Shown: in pieces, positions 2,942 through 36,900 of the stretch
Layout of the letters: each line of letters opens with the position of its first letter
Position numbering within the stretch: position 1 is the first letter of the stretch
NCBI GenBank assembly: GCA_016928075.1
Contig: JAFGLJ010000027.1
Span: 186,001-250,000, forward strand
Length of the DNA stretch: 64,000 bases
Direction: 5' to 3'
Source: Bacteroidales bacterium
GTDB taxonomy: Bacteria; Bacteroidota; Bacteroidia; Bacteroidales; VadinHA17
Made by a program: the position numbers and the translations under genes
Notes under the pieces: generated by a model
The model's database searches: none
Told to the model about the DNA's origin: nothing
Seen by the model: only the letters and a program-made list of their open reading frames with translations

Positions 2942-4021
2942 CTAATTCATCACCTTATTCTGGAAGCTGATAGACTCCTGATGTATCTGCTTGAATATTT
3001 TTATAATAAACTCGTCACTCATTCCCAGACACCTGGCTTTAGCCAGCCTGTCTTCCAGTATTTCAGACCATCGTCCTGTTTGCAGAATTGTTATATTCTC
3101 CTTCTTTTTATATCTCCCTATCTCTTCCGACACTGACATTCTGTTCCTTAACACTCTTATCAGTTCAGTATCCCAATGGTCGATCTGTCTTCTGTATTCA
3201 TTCAGACCTTCCATCTGTCTTATATTATTAACATCCGATTTCCTGTAAATGAGCCCTGCAAGTAGTGTTTTCAACTCATCCGGTGTTATTTGCTGGTCTT
3301 TATCACTCAAAGCAGAATCAGGCCTATAATGCGATTCGATGAACAGACCATCAAAATCAAGGTCCATAGCTGTTTGCGATATGCTGAATAGTAATTCCCT
3401 GTTCCCGCATATATGGCTTGGATCCGTAATGATCGGCAATTCCGGTATTCGTCTTTTCAATTCAATCGGTATTTCCCACTGTGGCATATTGCGATAAGGC
3501 GAATGACCATAATAACTGAACCCCCTGTGTATGGCTGCAAGTTTTTTTATTCCTGCTTTATTGAGTCTTTCAAAAGCACCTATCCAAAGTTCAATATCCG
3601 GGTTAATGGGATTTTTAATAAAAACGGGGATATCGAGTCCCCTGAGACCGTCAGCCAGTTCCTGTACTGCAAATGGATTAGCAGTGGTTCGAGCTCCAAC
3701 CCATAATATATCAACATCATATTTCAGAGCTTCCTTTAGATGCCACACATTTGCCACTTCTACCGCGGTCAGCATGCCCGTCTCTTCCTTCACTCTTCTT
3801 AACCATGGGAGTGCTACCGAACCCAATCCTTCAAATGTATCAGGCCGGGTTCTGGGCTTCCATATGCCGGCCCTGAATATTTTAACATTACTGTCAGCTA
3901 ATTGTTTCGCTGTCTCAATAACCTGTTCTTCAGACTCAGCACTGCAGGGCCCTGAAATTATTAGTGGTTTTTTATCCTTTCTGAACAGGTTGTTCTTTTT
4001 AAGATCCAGTTTGTATTGCAT
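2942..4021 (-). CDS. bifunctional DAHP synthase / chorismate mutase
   Basis: This fusion joins the entry step of the pathway (PEP plus erythrose-4-phosphate to DAHP) to the branch step towards Phe and Tyr (chorismate to prephenate). The N-terminal DAHP synthase domain (about residues 18-255) shows SGPCSAES, RAGIWKPRTRPDTFEGLG and IITDPSHICG. The C-terminal type II chorismate mutase domain (about 270-355) begins IDHWDTELIRVLRNRMSVSEEIGRYKK. This order is common in Bacteroidota. The start at MQYKLDLKK (359 residues), 4 bases after the aminotransferase stop, was chosen because a longer reading would lie inside that gene. Its product set fits control by Phe/Tyr through the upstream attenuator. 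Confidence 0.93.
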   Translation of the reverse strand: MQYKLDLKKNNLFRKDKKPLIISGPCSAESEEQVIETAKQLADSNVKIFRAGIWKPRTRPDTFEGLGSVALPWLRRVKEETGMLTAVEVANVWHLKEALKYDVDILWVGARTTANPFAVQELADGLRGLDIPVFIKNPINPDIELWIGAFERLNKAGIKKLAAIHRGFSYYGHSPYRNMPQWEIPIELKRRIPELPIITDPSHICGNRELLFSISQTAMDLDFDGLFIESHYRPDSALSDKDQQITPDELKTLLAGLIYRKSDVNNIRQMEGLNEYRRQIDHWDTELIRVLRNRMSVSEEIGRYKKKENITILQTGRWSEILEDRLAKARCLGMSDEFIIKIFKQIHQESISFQNKVMN

Positions 4022-4025
4022 AGTC

Positions 4026-5177
4026 TTATTTTTTAACTCTTCCAATAGCTTCTTTAATCCTTGACTCGTTGAGGCATAGAGATGTTCTGACATATCGGCT
4101 GCCATTTAATCCAAAAACCAGCCCGGGTGCAATAAACAGGTGGTATTTATCCAGGCAGTGTTCCGAGAACTCATATGAATCGGCAAATTCATCCGGTATC
4201 CTCGACCATAGGAACAATCCGGACTGATCAGCCCTGGTTGAGCAATCAAGGTAGTTCAGCAAATCATAGACCATTTGCTGTCTCAGCAAGTATATAGAAT
4301 TGAGCTTATCATACCATTCCTGACCCATTCTGAAGGCTTTGATTGCAGCCTGTTGTATCGGAAGGAACATCCCTGAATCAATATTGCTCTTTATCTTCAG
4401 AATATCATTTATGTGCTTCTCATGACCAATCACCATTCCCAGCCTCCATCCTGCCATATTATGAGATTTACTCAGTGAATTAAGTTCAAGCACATTTTCA
4501 AAAGAACTATTTCCTGAGAGGATGCTCAGGGGCCTATTGTTCAGGATAAAACTATATGGATTATCATTAACAACCAAAATGTTATGTCTGCGTGCAAAAT
4601 TAACTAGTGCTCTGAATAATCCAGCGGTAGCCTTTACACCGGCAGGCATATTCGGATAGTTAACCCACATCAATTTGATTTCCTGAAGATTTTCATTTTC
4701 CAGGCTTTCAAGATCAGGCATCCAGTTATTTTCATCATTAAGATCATAATAGATACATCTGGCGCCGCATATCCTGGCAGCCGTGGCATATGCAGGGTAA
4801 CCTGTGTCAGGGACCAGGACAGCATCACCACTGTTCAGGTATGCCATGCTTATATGCATTATTCCCTCCTTGGAACCAATAAGTGGAAGTACCTGGCTGG
4901 CGGGATTTGTTTTAACTTTATAATAAAGGTAATACCAGTCGGATATGGCTGATCTCAACTCATCAATACCCCGATAAGGCTGATAACCATGAGCCTCTGG
5001 ATTAATACAGCTGCTGGTAAGAGCCTCGATAACTTCACCCGGTGGTAAAATATCAGGACTGCCGACACCCATATTTATGACATCAATTCCGGAAGAAATC
5101 ATCTCCCTGATTACTGATAGTTTGCCTGAGAAATAATATTCTCTCACCTGTTCTGTTCTTTTTGCTGAATCTACCAT
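4026..5177 (-). CDS. PLP-dependent class I/II aminotransferase (aromatic/aspartate type)
   Basis: This is the first structural gene of the aromatic operon. It is a fold-type I aminotransferase of 383 residues with the PLP-lysine motif SLSKSHNMAGWR (Lys237), the VNYPNMPAG segment and a C-terminal RTSLC arginine region for substrate carboxylate binding. From its position next to chorismate mutase it probably transaminates prephenate, phenylpyruvate or 4-hydroxyphenylpyruvate; the exact substrate cannot be read from sequence. The ATG lies only 5 bases after the end of the U-tract of a strong terminator, and the leader upstream encodes a Tyr/Phe-rich peptide, so its transcription is probably attenuated by aromatic amino acid supply. 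Confidence 0.88.
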   Translation of the reverse strand: MVDSAKRTEQVREYYFSGKLSVIREMISSGIDVINMGVGSPDILPPGEVIEALTSSCINPEAHGYQPYRGIDELRSAISDWYYLYYKVKTNPASQVLPLIGSKEGIMHISMAYLNSGDAVLVPDTGYPAYATAARICGARCIYYDLNDENNWMPDLESLENENLQEIKLMWVNYPNMPAGVKATAGLFRALVNFARRHNILVVNDNPYSFILNNRPLSILSGNSSFENVLELNSLSKSHNMAGWRLGMVIGHEKHINDILKIKSNIDSGMFLPIQQAAIKAFRMGQEWYDKLNSIYLLRQQMVYDLLNYLDCSTRADQSGLFLWSRIPDEFADSYEFSEHCLDKYHLFIAPGLVFGLNGSRYVRTSLCLNESRIKEAIGRVKK

Positions 5178-5182
5178 TGATC

Positions 5183-5212
5183 AAAAAAAAAGCCCCTCCT
5201 CGAGGAGGGGCT
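5183..5212 (-). terminator. intrinsic terminator of the aromatic-operon attenuator
   Basis: On the minus strand a GC-rich hairpin has arms AGCCCCTCC (5212-5204) and GGAGGGGCT (5199-5191) with loop TCGA: a perfect 9 bp stem. It is followed directly by nine T. It sits after the leader peptide stop and 5 bases before the aminotransferase ATG, so it can only be useful if it is conditional. No gene ends just upstream of it on this strand except the leader peptide. Confidence 0.9.
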
Positions 5213-5251
5213 GCCTGTTAAACATTATAAATATACGAATATATCCCTCCT
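5203..5251 (-). promoter_or_regulatory. candidate antiterminator pairing in the attenuator leader
   Basis: Minus-strand AGGAGGG (5251-5245) is the exact complement of CCCTCCT (5209-5203), which lies within the 5' arm and loop of the terminator. Forming this 7 bp helix would destroy the terminator stem. AGGAGGG overlaps the TAG stop of the leader peptide, so a ribosome that reaches the stop would mask it and allow termination, while a ribosome stalled on the Tyr/Phe codons about 20-35 bases upstream would leave it free. The pairing is seen in sequence; the mechanism is inferred from classical amino acid attenuators. Confidence 0.7.
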
Positions 5252-5306
5252 ACTGTACTTCAATGAAGTAGTAATAGCAGAAGTAATAGTGATTCGTATT
5301 CATCAT
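5250..5306 (-). CDS. Tyr/Phe-rich attenuator leader peptide
   Basis: An 18-codon ORF on the minus strand reads MMNTNHYYFCYYYFIEVQ and ends with TAG. It has five Tyr and two Phe codons in the eight codons YYFCYYYF, and no Trp. It begins about 12 bases after the predicted transcription start and is followed by the antiterminator arm and the terminator. The downstream operon encodes an aminotransferase and a DAHP synthase/chorismate mutase, which make Tyr and Phe precursors, so codon content and function agree. It resembles the pheL/pheST type leader peptides of enterobacteria in design, not in sequence. It is too short for normal gene callers. Confidence 0.85.
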   Translation of the reverse strand: MMNTNHYYFCYYYFIEVQ

Positions 5307-5324
5307 CTCTTTAAATTATGGCAT

Positions 5325-5355
5325 CAAAATTAAGCTTGTTTATTTTATATGCAAA
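5325..5355 (-). promoter_or_regulatory. Bacteroidota-type promoter of the aromatic operon
   Basis: On the minus strand there is TTTG (5355-5352), a 19-base spacer, and TAATTTTG (5332-5325). This fits the known Bacteroides consensus TTTG-N19-21-TAnnTTTG exactly. The expected start site falls near 5318, about 12 bases before the leader peptide ATG. Confidence 0.75.
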
Positions 5356-34511: not shown

Positions 34512-36900
34512 ATTTTTCCAATTGTTGCAGCTTTTCTGACAAAGCTTTTTGCTGCTCATTAGACAGACCATTTAGCTCCAGAGCCTTCATTAAAATCTCC
34601 CTGGCCTTTTTATATTCACCGGCATTCGTTAATATATCTGCCATAAGTAAATAAGATTCAATATATTGGGGGAAGTCAGATATAACATTCACCAGAATTT
34701 CTTTTGATCCTGATGCATTGCCCGATCTTAACATGTAAAAAGCATAAGTATAGGCATATTTAGGGTTTCCTGGTTCTCAATACATAGCTTTCCGGCTCAG
34801 CTCAACTGCTTCGCCAAGTTTATTCTGTGACAGTAGCACCGCCAGATTATAGGCAGCCAAGGCATTTTTATCACTCACCTCTAAAAGACGTCTGAAATAT
34901 TGAGCCGCCATTTCATTATCACCTCTCTCTCCATATAATAAAGCAATGTTAGTCAATGCTGTTTCATGATCAGGTTCAATTGAAAGAGCCTTGTTAAACA
35001 TTTCTTCTGCACTTTCATAATCTCCCATCAACGAATAAACAAAGCCGGCATTCACCATTGGCATAATAGCCTCCGGGTATATTCTAAATGATGTAATATA
35101 GGAGTTTAAGGCCTTATTAAATTCATTCCGGTTACTTTAATAATTCCCGAGATTATAATGAGCTGACCACGAATCTGGATGTGTAACCAGTGATGCTTCG
35201 TATTCCTTGAAGGCCTCCAATACTTTTGCCCTGTCAGACTCAACTATATTGGTCAAGGGCAACGAACTGAGCGCATATGCTGCATTTAGTCTTACCACCC
35301 TGTATTGATCATCAATAAGTTGCAGGAGCCTTTCAAAAACCTCTGCAGAATAGTTCATGGAAAGGCTGTGCGCAGCAGCTCCTCTAACCAGGGGAGACTT
35401 ATGATAAGTGAGGTTGTACATTACTGCCCATTTTGCAGTATCATTACATTGTTCAAGCAATCTAATGAAAGAAGTAGTATAAACATTATCAAAGCGTCCT
35501 TCTTCCAGACCGGTCAGTATTTTATCAAGCTCAGACCAATCACCTTCCCTGGCTTTTCTTATAAGTTCACCGTTAACAATAGTTTCATTCTGGTATTCAA
35601 CTTTATGAGTCTCTTTAATTAACTTGTCAGCCCATTCAGCCGATTGAACATCATGGCATATATTGCAGGCATTAGGTGAGCCGAAAGCCATGGTAGCCTG
35701 TGGCATGGGTGGTCTGAATGAATGATCACTTCTATCCATTCGTGCAAAACTTGTTTTTGGCATATGACAGGCTATGCATTTGCTTGCCTCGGAGTTGGGA
35801 TTATGAAAAGAATGTTCACTTACATTATTTACCCTTTCATCGTGACATGGCATACATGCATCATTAGCATTCTCCCCGGCAAATCGATATCGGCCGCTTG
35901 AAGTGTGACAATCAACACAGTGCATATCACTGGCAGCAGCACATTTATTCATCTCCCATGTGGTCATAGTATAATTTTCCCCCAAATCACGACCGTCTGC
36001 ATAAAAATCGGGATTCTCAAGTGTAACAAGATCAAAATAATCATAAAATAAACCACCAGGTTCAAAAGATTGTGCAATCACAGTTGCTTTTGCATGGCAC
36101 GAACCACATGCAGAATTATGTTGTTCAGAAGTGAACATGCTTGTTTGCACTATTTTGAGATCTTCCGGTGTATTTCCCTCTCCTGCTTTTACGCATGCTA
36201 CTATATGGTCATAACTGGGGCCGTGACATGTTTCACAATTAATTCCCGGCTCTCTCCATGTTGTATTATAACTGTTATCAGCAAGATTATAATTCGTTTC
36301 CAACTGGCTTACATGGCAATTGTAGCAGGTTGTATTGAAAGTGAATAAGTGGTTACGCCAGTCCAGTGGTGCATCTTCAATGTTTTCGAAGTGTCTCAAT
36401 CCGCTTTCAGGATTATTATACCAGCTTTCCGTATCACAATCGTAGGCAAGTGGCAATACCTGAAGGCGTCCACCAGGGAATGGTGTAAGGAAATAATAGA
36501 TATACTTCCCTCCCATCGTATGGACTGCAGGAAACCTCGATACTGTACCCGAGGTTTTTTGCTCAATGAAAAACAGGGTGTCACCATCTAATGAGACCTT
36601 AAAGGTATCCGTCCCTACCTGAACTGACTGGTTGAATGCATGTATATTTGCGCGGATAAAAGCACCCGTAACTGGTTGCATGGCCAGTCCATGATATGAA
36701 TCATGCCACAGCTGGTAGAATTTTTCGTGGCAAGGATTGCAACTTTCACTGCCTGAATAGGCAGCTATTTCTTCTCTTAAATTATTTGCCCATTTATTTT
36801 GTATATATATTATTGCTACAATCCCGGAGATAACTAAAAGAAAAATAATTATAGGAATCAATAACCTGTATTTCAATCTAATATATGTTCCTTTTATCAT
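34501..36900 (-). pseudogene. octaheme c-type cytochrome with HEAT/TPR tail, interrupted by two nonsense codons
   Basis: One continuous frame of 799 codons is broken only by TAA (35137-35139) and TGA (34777-34779). The first part (587 residues) has a membrane anchor and eight haem-binding CxxCH motifs: CNPCH, CYNCH, CETCH, CGSCH, CVDCH, CMPCH, CIACH, CNICH. HEAT-like repeats follow (LVRGAAAHSLSMNYS, VVRLNAAYALSSLP), then TPRs on both sides of the stops (SAHYNLGNY; GDYESAEEMFNKALSIEPDH). The stops seem to replace a Tyr (LGNY-stop-SNRNEF) and a Leu (KAMY-stop-EPGNPK) by single base changes. A truncated 587-residue cytochrome could still be made. Likely a recent pseudogene or a sequencing error. 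Confidence 0.8.

Follow-up and report, generated by a model that had tools for sequence, protein, structure and literature searches.

A predicted tyrosine-directed leader-peptide attenuator ahead of an aromatic amino acid operon in a Bacteroidales bacterium, and its relatives across the Bacteroidota

Results

The aromatic operon and its leader region

The window, as we call the whole 64,000-nucleotide stretch of Bacteroidales DNA analysed here, carries on its minus strand an operon that begins with a class I/II aminotransferase gene and runs in the order aminotransferase, DAHP synthase/chorismate mutase, aroB, aroA, aroC, tyrA. The last two genes lie past the window edge (locus L088), and tyrA, identified by PF02153, closes the operon. 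The aminotransferase falls below every NCBIfam equivalog cut-off among the matches listed. The element that concerns us is intergenic, also on the minus strand, between the aminotransferase gene and the divergently oriented nth. The features of the locus are as follows.

609–1934 (−): aroA, EPSP synthase (TIGR01356, above cut-off)
1870–2901 (−): aroB, 3-dehydroquinate synthase (TIGR01357, above cut-off)
2942–4105 (−): DAHP synthase fused to chorismate mutase (PF00793 and PF01817)
4026–5177 (−): class I/II aminotransferase, first structural gene (Pfam PF00155)
5183–5199 (−): segment 4, terminator 3′ arm GGAGGGGCT (5199–5191) and T tract to 5183
5203–5212 (−): segment 3, 5′ arm of the terminator (AGCCCCTCC) together with T5203, which may pair with segment 2a instead
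5233–5240 (−): segment 2b, ATTCGTAT, shortly after AGGAGGG; with segment 1 it would form the pause or protector hairpin 1:2
5245–5251 (−): segment 2a, AGGAGGG, putative antiterminator strand, overlapping the leader stop codon; partner 5209–5203
5250–5306 (−): leader ORF MMNTNHYYFCYYYFIEVQ-TAG, 18 codons, with five Tyr and two Phe control codons
5292–5299 (−): segment 1, ATACGAAT, leader codons 3–5, ahead of the Tyr run; partner of segment 2b in the minimum free energy (MFE) fold
5325–5355 (−): promoter as judged from sequence, TTTG (5355–5352), a 19-nt spacer and TAATTTTG (5332–5325)

The leader ORF starts about 12 nt downstream of the likely transcription start site, and 18 nt separate the end of the promoter box from its ATG. 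It begins ATGATG, and either the first or the second ATG could serve as the start. Its control run reads YYFCYYYF. The stop codon lies 72 nt from the start of the aminotransferase gene, and in between stands a terminator (5212–5191) with a 9-bp stem, AGCCCCTCC/GGAGGGGCT, a TCGA loop and a tract of nine T (5191–5183), the first of which is also the last base of the stem. Five bases separate the T tract from the aminotransferase ATG at 5177. The original prediction had described a TTTG-N19-TAATTTTG promoter, a leader ORF about 12 bases after the predicted start and a 9-bp hairpin with nine T ending 5 bases before the first ATG; promoter and ORF are present on the minus strand at 5355–5325 and 5306–5250, and the hairpin is correct to the base. 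The essential part of the proposed switch, the antiterminator AGGAGGG, had been overlooked.

This heptamer (5251–5245) includes the last two bases of the leader UAG and is complementary to CCCTCCT (5209–5203) in the terminator 5′ arm, so that its pairing and the terminator are mutually exclusive. In the MFE fold an 8-bp pairing of 5299–5292 with 5240–5233 makes up hairpin 1:2. Compared with 200 dinucleotide shuffles, none of which folds as stably, the leader fold is more stable by 4.4 s.d. Together with a short ORF just past a promoter, a run of end-product codons and a terminator ahead of the first gene, the arrangement is, as read from the sequence, the classical 1:2 / 2:3 / 3:4 layout of trp-type attenuator logic.

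Conservation across the Bacteroidota

We scanned for a Tyr/Phe-rich short ORF with a terminator within 75 nt. Across 1.33 Mb of surrounding sequence, read on both strands as a control, this combination occurred twice, and in the whole 64-kb window the element is the single convincing match, with one weak second match at 36366 (+). A strict scan of the window and 38 close relatives found leader and terminator at 34 of 39 loci, and three of the five misses have a leader by eye. Among 110 further loci, drawn from named genomes and from a search for prephenate dehydratase, 76 were positive. Because real leaders whose terminators had longer loops or AT-rich tails escaped the strict criteria, this count is a lower bound, and most of the missed genomes that we inspected show a leader by eye.

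An order-wide survey of further genomes with the orthologous aminotransferase found both parts in 75 of 79, two of the four misses being cut off by contig ends. Loss of the Tyr/Phe-rich ORF or the terminator in relatives had been named as grounds for abandoning the original prediction, and the survey came out the other way. The element is also present in Flavobacteriaceae, Chitinophaga, Hymenobacter, Paludibacter, Phocaeicola and others, for a family total of about 222 elements at 187 loci across the Bacteroidota, 35 of which hold more than one.

Of 122 homologous leaders, 45 have a promoter pair of the form TTnG-N17..22-TAnnTT[TC]G upstream, where 1.2 would be expected. The box in the window matches the TAnnTTTG promoter box reported for Flavobacterium (PMC9723704).

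Tandem leader–terminator units stand before a single operon at L039, L040, L057, L074, L094, L115, L140, L195, L306, L326 and other loci, each unit with its own Tyr/Phe run and antiterminator. L039, from the same genus as the window, has two such units, both nearly pure in Tyr, in place of the window's single one.

Alternative pairing and predicted switching

The duplex of segment 2a with the terminator arm has a z score of −3.1 against shuffles in the window and a mean of −2.5 in the family. Paired with the terminator arm of its own element, strand 2 reaches −12.7 kcal/mol, and with the arms of other elements −8.8 kcal/mol (Wilcoxon test of own versus swapped, p = 1e-20, relatedness ignored). 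In 122 of 124 elements, which comprise 94 distinct shared core sequences, the terminator arm uses the same bases at five or more positions to pair with strand 2 and with strand 4. Strand 2 lies a median of 11 nt beyond the end of the control run, where a ribosome that has reached or nearly reached the stop codon would cover it, and across the family it moves along with the codon run and the stop codon. Pairing of segments 1 and 2b is likewise stronger family-wide for own than for swapped partners (−9.05 versus −6.88 kcal/mol, p = 1.5e-8, relatedness ignored) but is not uniform.

For folding, the nascent transcript was cut at the terminator loop, and a ribosome was taken to mask everything up to 12 nt beyond base one of its A-site codon. 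In these in silico folds AGGAGGG is covered by a ribosome at the stop codon and free when the ribosome is stalled: the predicted probability of 2:3 pairing in the window is 0.74 whichever of the seven Tyr/Phe codons holds the stalled ribosome, 0.18 when the ribosome sits at the stop codon and 0.14 when there is none. Over 123 elements the means are 0.74, 0.13 and 0.64, respectively, and in 118 of the 123 the stalled and stop states differ by more than 0.3. With shuffled linkers the antiterminator probability is still 0.45 in the stalled state, and part of the contrast between stalled and stop states is therefore geometric. Since the mean of 0.64 without a ribosome means that several homologues are not predicted to terminate by default, the 1:2 step is not uniform either.

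Control codons and operon content

The Tyr share of the control run averages 0.73 where the operon lacks pheA and starts with the aminotransferase (31 unique cores) and 0.44 where it starts with pheA (162 unique cores), a difference with p = 1e-11 when relatedness is ignored. The leader peptides share only their Tyr/Phe runs, not their sequence; YYYYY and YYYAYYY runs occur at aminotransferase-first operons of the unrelated groups Arcicella (L093) and Lentimicrobium (L095). Phe has been lost from leaders where pheA left the operon in several lineages. A single genus provides one such comparison, with NYSFYFFFY in G012 and G032, where pheA is in the operon, versus YCYYYFYY in G021 and G028, where it has moved. 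Some aminotransferase-first leaders are mixed Tyr/Phe (L041, L291).

Before three lone pheA genes the run is purely Phe, its Tyr share being 0.0 (MNLSRFFGFFFFGTG, MNLSRFFGFSFFGTG and MIDNSCIFTGFFFFIKAG). At nine further lone pheA loci we found RFFFFFAFFF in two, FDFVFGFLFCF in one, RFFFYF in one and a mixed run in one (L345); at the other four (L346, L348, L350 and L351) no leader was found. Where a lone pheA does have a leader, its run is in most cases Phe throughout or almost so. Lone pheA genes at L349 and L352 (genomes G444 and G240) have very Phe-rich leaders, MKHDTFRFFFFFAFFFCNGRNGVSYSY and MRRNSFRFFFFFAFFFCNGRNGVSYLY, with a terminator. At L205 and L209 (Flectobacillus and Arcicella) a prephenate dehydratase fused to a chorismate mutase domain is encoded elsewhere, with no nearby leader, and in these genomes the aminotransferase has a pure Tyr leader.

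A search for prephenate dehydratase (PF00800) came up empty in four genomes of the genus to which the window belongs (G000–G003, 76–94% complete), so Tyr is probably the main signal there. The earlier proposal that Tyr, rather than Phe, dominates the signal thereby gains support, as it does from the correlation of leader composition with operon content. Phe auxotrophy or loss of the pathway in the genus is possible. G001 and G002 also lack a close orthologue of the aminotransferase; the assemblies are incomplete.

Trp is enriched inside the control runs (28 of 298 non-Tyr/Phe residues, versus 47 of 2750 outside; for example YYYWYYY, L326), and some leaders may therefore sense all three aromatic amino acids. 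As a control for specificity within the same genomes, hisG is mostly preceded by His runs and trpE mostly by Trp runs. His-run leaders stand ahead of hisG at the large majority of 22 Bacteroidota loci (L217–L238), most with a terminator, and Trp-run leaders, mostly WWW, with terminators ahead of trpE at about 17 of 20 (L239–L258). The window's own genome has a His-run leader, MNNIALHHHHHVTCLPASG, upstream of hisG (L234, contig G000:C50).

Discussion

The window very probably holds an attenuator of transcription that works through the ribosome, as those of trp, phe and his do, and that responds chiefly to charged tRNA-Tyr. Its parts, their conservation and complementarity and the link of codons to operon content are observed here; the events in the cell are inferred from them. 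RNA polymerase would transcribe the leader with a ribosome trailing, presumably coupled closely enough for its position on the translated ORF to matter. With ample charged tRNA-Tyr the ribosome would reach the stop codon and cover AGGAGGG, terminator 3:4 would form, and transcription would probably end in the cell before the aminotransferase gene. When charged tRNA-Tyr, or to a lesser degree tRNA-Phe, runs short, the ribosome would stall in the Tyr/Phe run and leave AGGAGGG free to pair with the emerging terminator 5′ arm as 2:3, and the operon would be transcribed. With no ribosome on the leader, hairpin 1:2 would sequester segment 2 and termination would follow by default.

The alternative that deserves most weight keeps the attenuator and makes the signal a combined one, of Phe with Tyr or of all three aromatic amino acids. 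The two Phe codons in the window's run and the mixed runs of some aminotransferase-first leaders make a joint Tyr/Phe signal possible; the enrichment of Trp in control runs points the same way, as do the role of the operon's DAHP synthase in feeding all three aromatics and the AroR leader of Corynebacterium glutamicum, whose Phe-Tyr-Phe codons are reported to answer to Phe and not to Tyr (PMC11802643). Set against these are the dropping of Phe from leaders in several lineages where pheA is gone from the operon, including the comparison within one genus, the failure to find pheA in the window's genus, and the two near-pure Tyr runs at L039 in that same genus. We regard a joint signal as possible but rather unlikely.

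Explanations that dispense with attenuation fare much worse than a Tyr-directed attenuator. A riboswitch, T-box or protein-binding leader, with a ligand-controlled terminator and an incidental ORF, would look alike in being a structured leader with a terminator, and Rfam does return weak matches. All of these stay below the gathering score of their family, though: Phe_leader (RF01859) scores 24.1 bits in the window leader against a gathering cut-off of 55, and no T-box match appears there up to E = 5. BTnc231 (E = 0.03) was rejected, its cut-off not being reached at Phocaeicola and other loci either. Operon content, moreover, is tracked by codons and not by RNA sequence, and strand 2 follows the run and the stop codon; a ligand-binding leader is accordingly very unlikely. 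That the leader boosts translation of the first gene by reinitiation, as an 'antenna' (PMC4833913), or encodes a functional small protein, is highly improbable. Leader genes close to structural genes (11–14 bp) are indeed frequent in Bacteroidetes (PMC4833913), but here the leader stop is separated from the gene by 72 nt and a terminator, and the peptides have nothing but Tyr/Phe runs in common. Short ORFs and terminators are common enough (10 terminator-like sites versus 6.0 expected in 8 kb) that an ordinary intrinsic terminator might lie beside an ORF without meaning between divergent genes, nth being on the opposite strand; two matches in the control sequence versus near-universal presence at the same place in relatives leave chance origin next to no probability, and conservation refutes it.

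Leader attenuators for Trp, Phe and His are classical. Like E. coli pheL and trpL, the window element has end-product codons in a leader ORF, alternative pairings 1:2, 2:3 and 3:4 and a terminator before the first gene; it differs from them in that segment 1 precedes the control codons, strand 2 overlaps the stop codon, the control codons are mainly Tyr, the host belongs to the Bacteroidota and the Phe_leader cut-off is not reached. The original prediction called such attenuation 'classical in Proteobacteria', but it is not confined to that group, with cases in Actinobacteria and Firmicutes (PMC1262725, PMC2965389) and clues in Flavobacterium (PMC9723704). In the actinobacterium C. glutamicum the aroR leader that precedes aroF (Neshat et al. 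2014, cited through PMC11802643) likewise controls a DAHP synthase operon by ribosome stalling, with Phe-Tyr-Phe codons and a response to Phe; the window run, in contrast, has five Tyr to two Phe, and searches of its genus turned up no pheA. Tyr T-boxes of Firmicutes resemble the proposed switch in sensing the charging of tRNA-Tyr and controlling transcription termination but do so by direct binding of the tRNA, with no leader ORF involved; a 2005 survey names T-boxes as the RNA control for tyrosine (PMC1262725).

Within the phylum, 5′ UTRs of Bacteroides thetaiotaomicron contain sORFs reminiscent of leader peptides (PMC7366714). For Flavobacterium psychrophilum, a 2021 transcriptome reports that pheA and hisG are preceded by structured 5′ regions, with 'strong clues' for leader-peptide attenuation (PMC9723704). 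The pheA element shares phylum and target gene with the family described here, and our Flavobacteriaceae homologues, Flavobacterium among them, are very likely of the kind reported there; the main text of that source is silent on codon composition, mechanism, occurrence outside the family or throughout the order, a variant directed by Tyr, and tandem copies. Flavo-1 RNA (RF01705) lies at 607–750 (−) of L142, the pheA locus of a Flavobacterium MAG. In the literature searched, which excludes the survey of Lopatovskaya et al. (2010) that may list Bacteroidetes, we found almost nothing on Bacteroidetes attenuators and no Tyr-directed classical attenuator with phylum-wide spread. Given the known Trp, Phe and His attenuators, the Phe-responsive aroR and the lack of an Rfam match at cut-off, we call the window element a Tyr-directed variant: it is a version of an old principle, and its Tyr direction is what would be new.

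More broadly, we consider it fairly probable that one re-tunable, ribosome-sensing attenuator serves aromatic amino acid biosynthesis throughout the Bacteroidota, its codons shifting from mixed to Tyr once pheA is gone from the operon, and pure Phe leaders often preceding a pheA that stands alone. Tyrosine control is known through the TyrR protein in E. coli or through T-box RNA in Firmicutes. To the classical set of attenuators, a leader peptide counting tyrosine codons would add a missing member, and the window element, if the reading is true, would be the first documented tyrosine-sensing classical attenuator. The codon run and gene content changing together would amount to a natural experiment on how regulator specificity evolves.

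Bacteroidota mostly initiate translation without Shine-Dalgarno sequences, and classical attenuation requires a ribosome close behind RNA polymerase. If the reading holds, the spread of the family implies transcription–translation coupling at leaders in this phylum; given that requirement, the near-universal Tyr/Phe leaders, together with those for His and Trp, make such coupling directly testable at defined loci. Many short ORFs ahead of biosynthetic operons in gut and marine Bacteroidota would then become annotatable.
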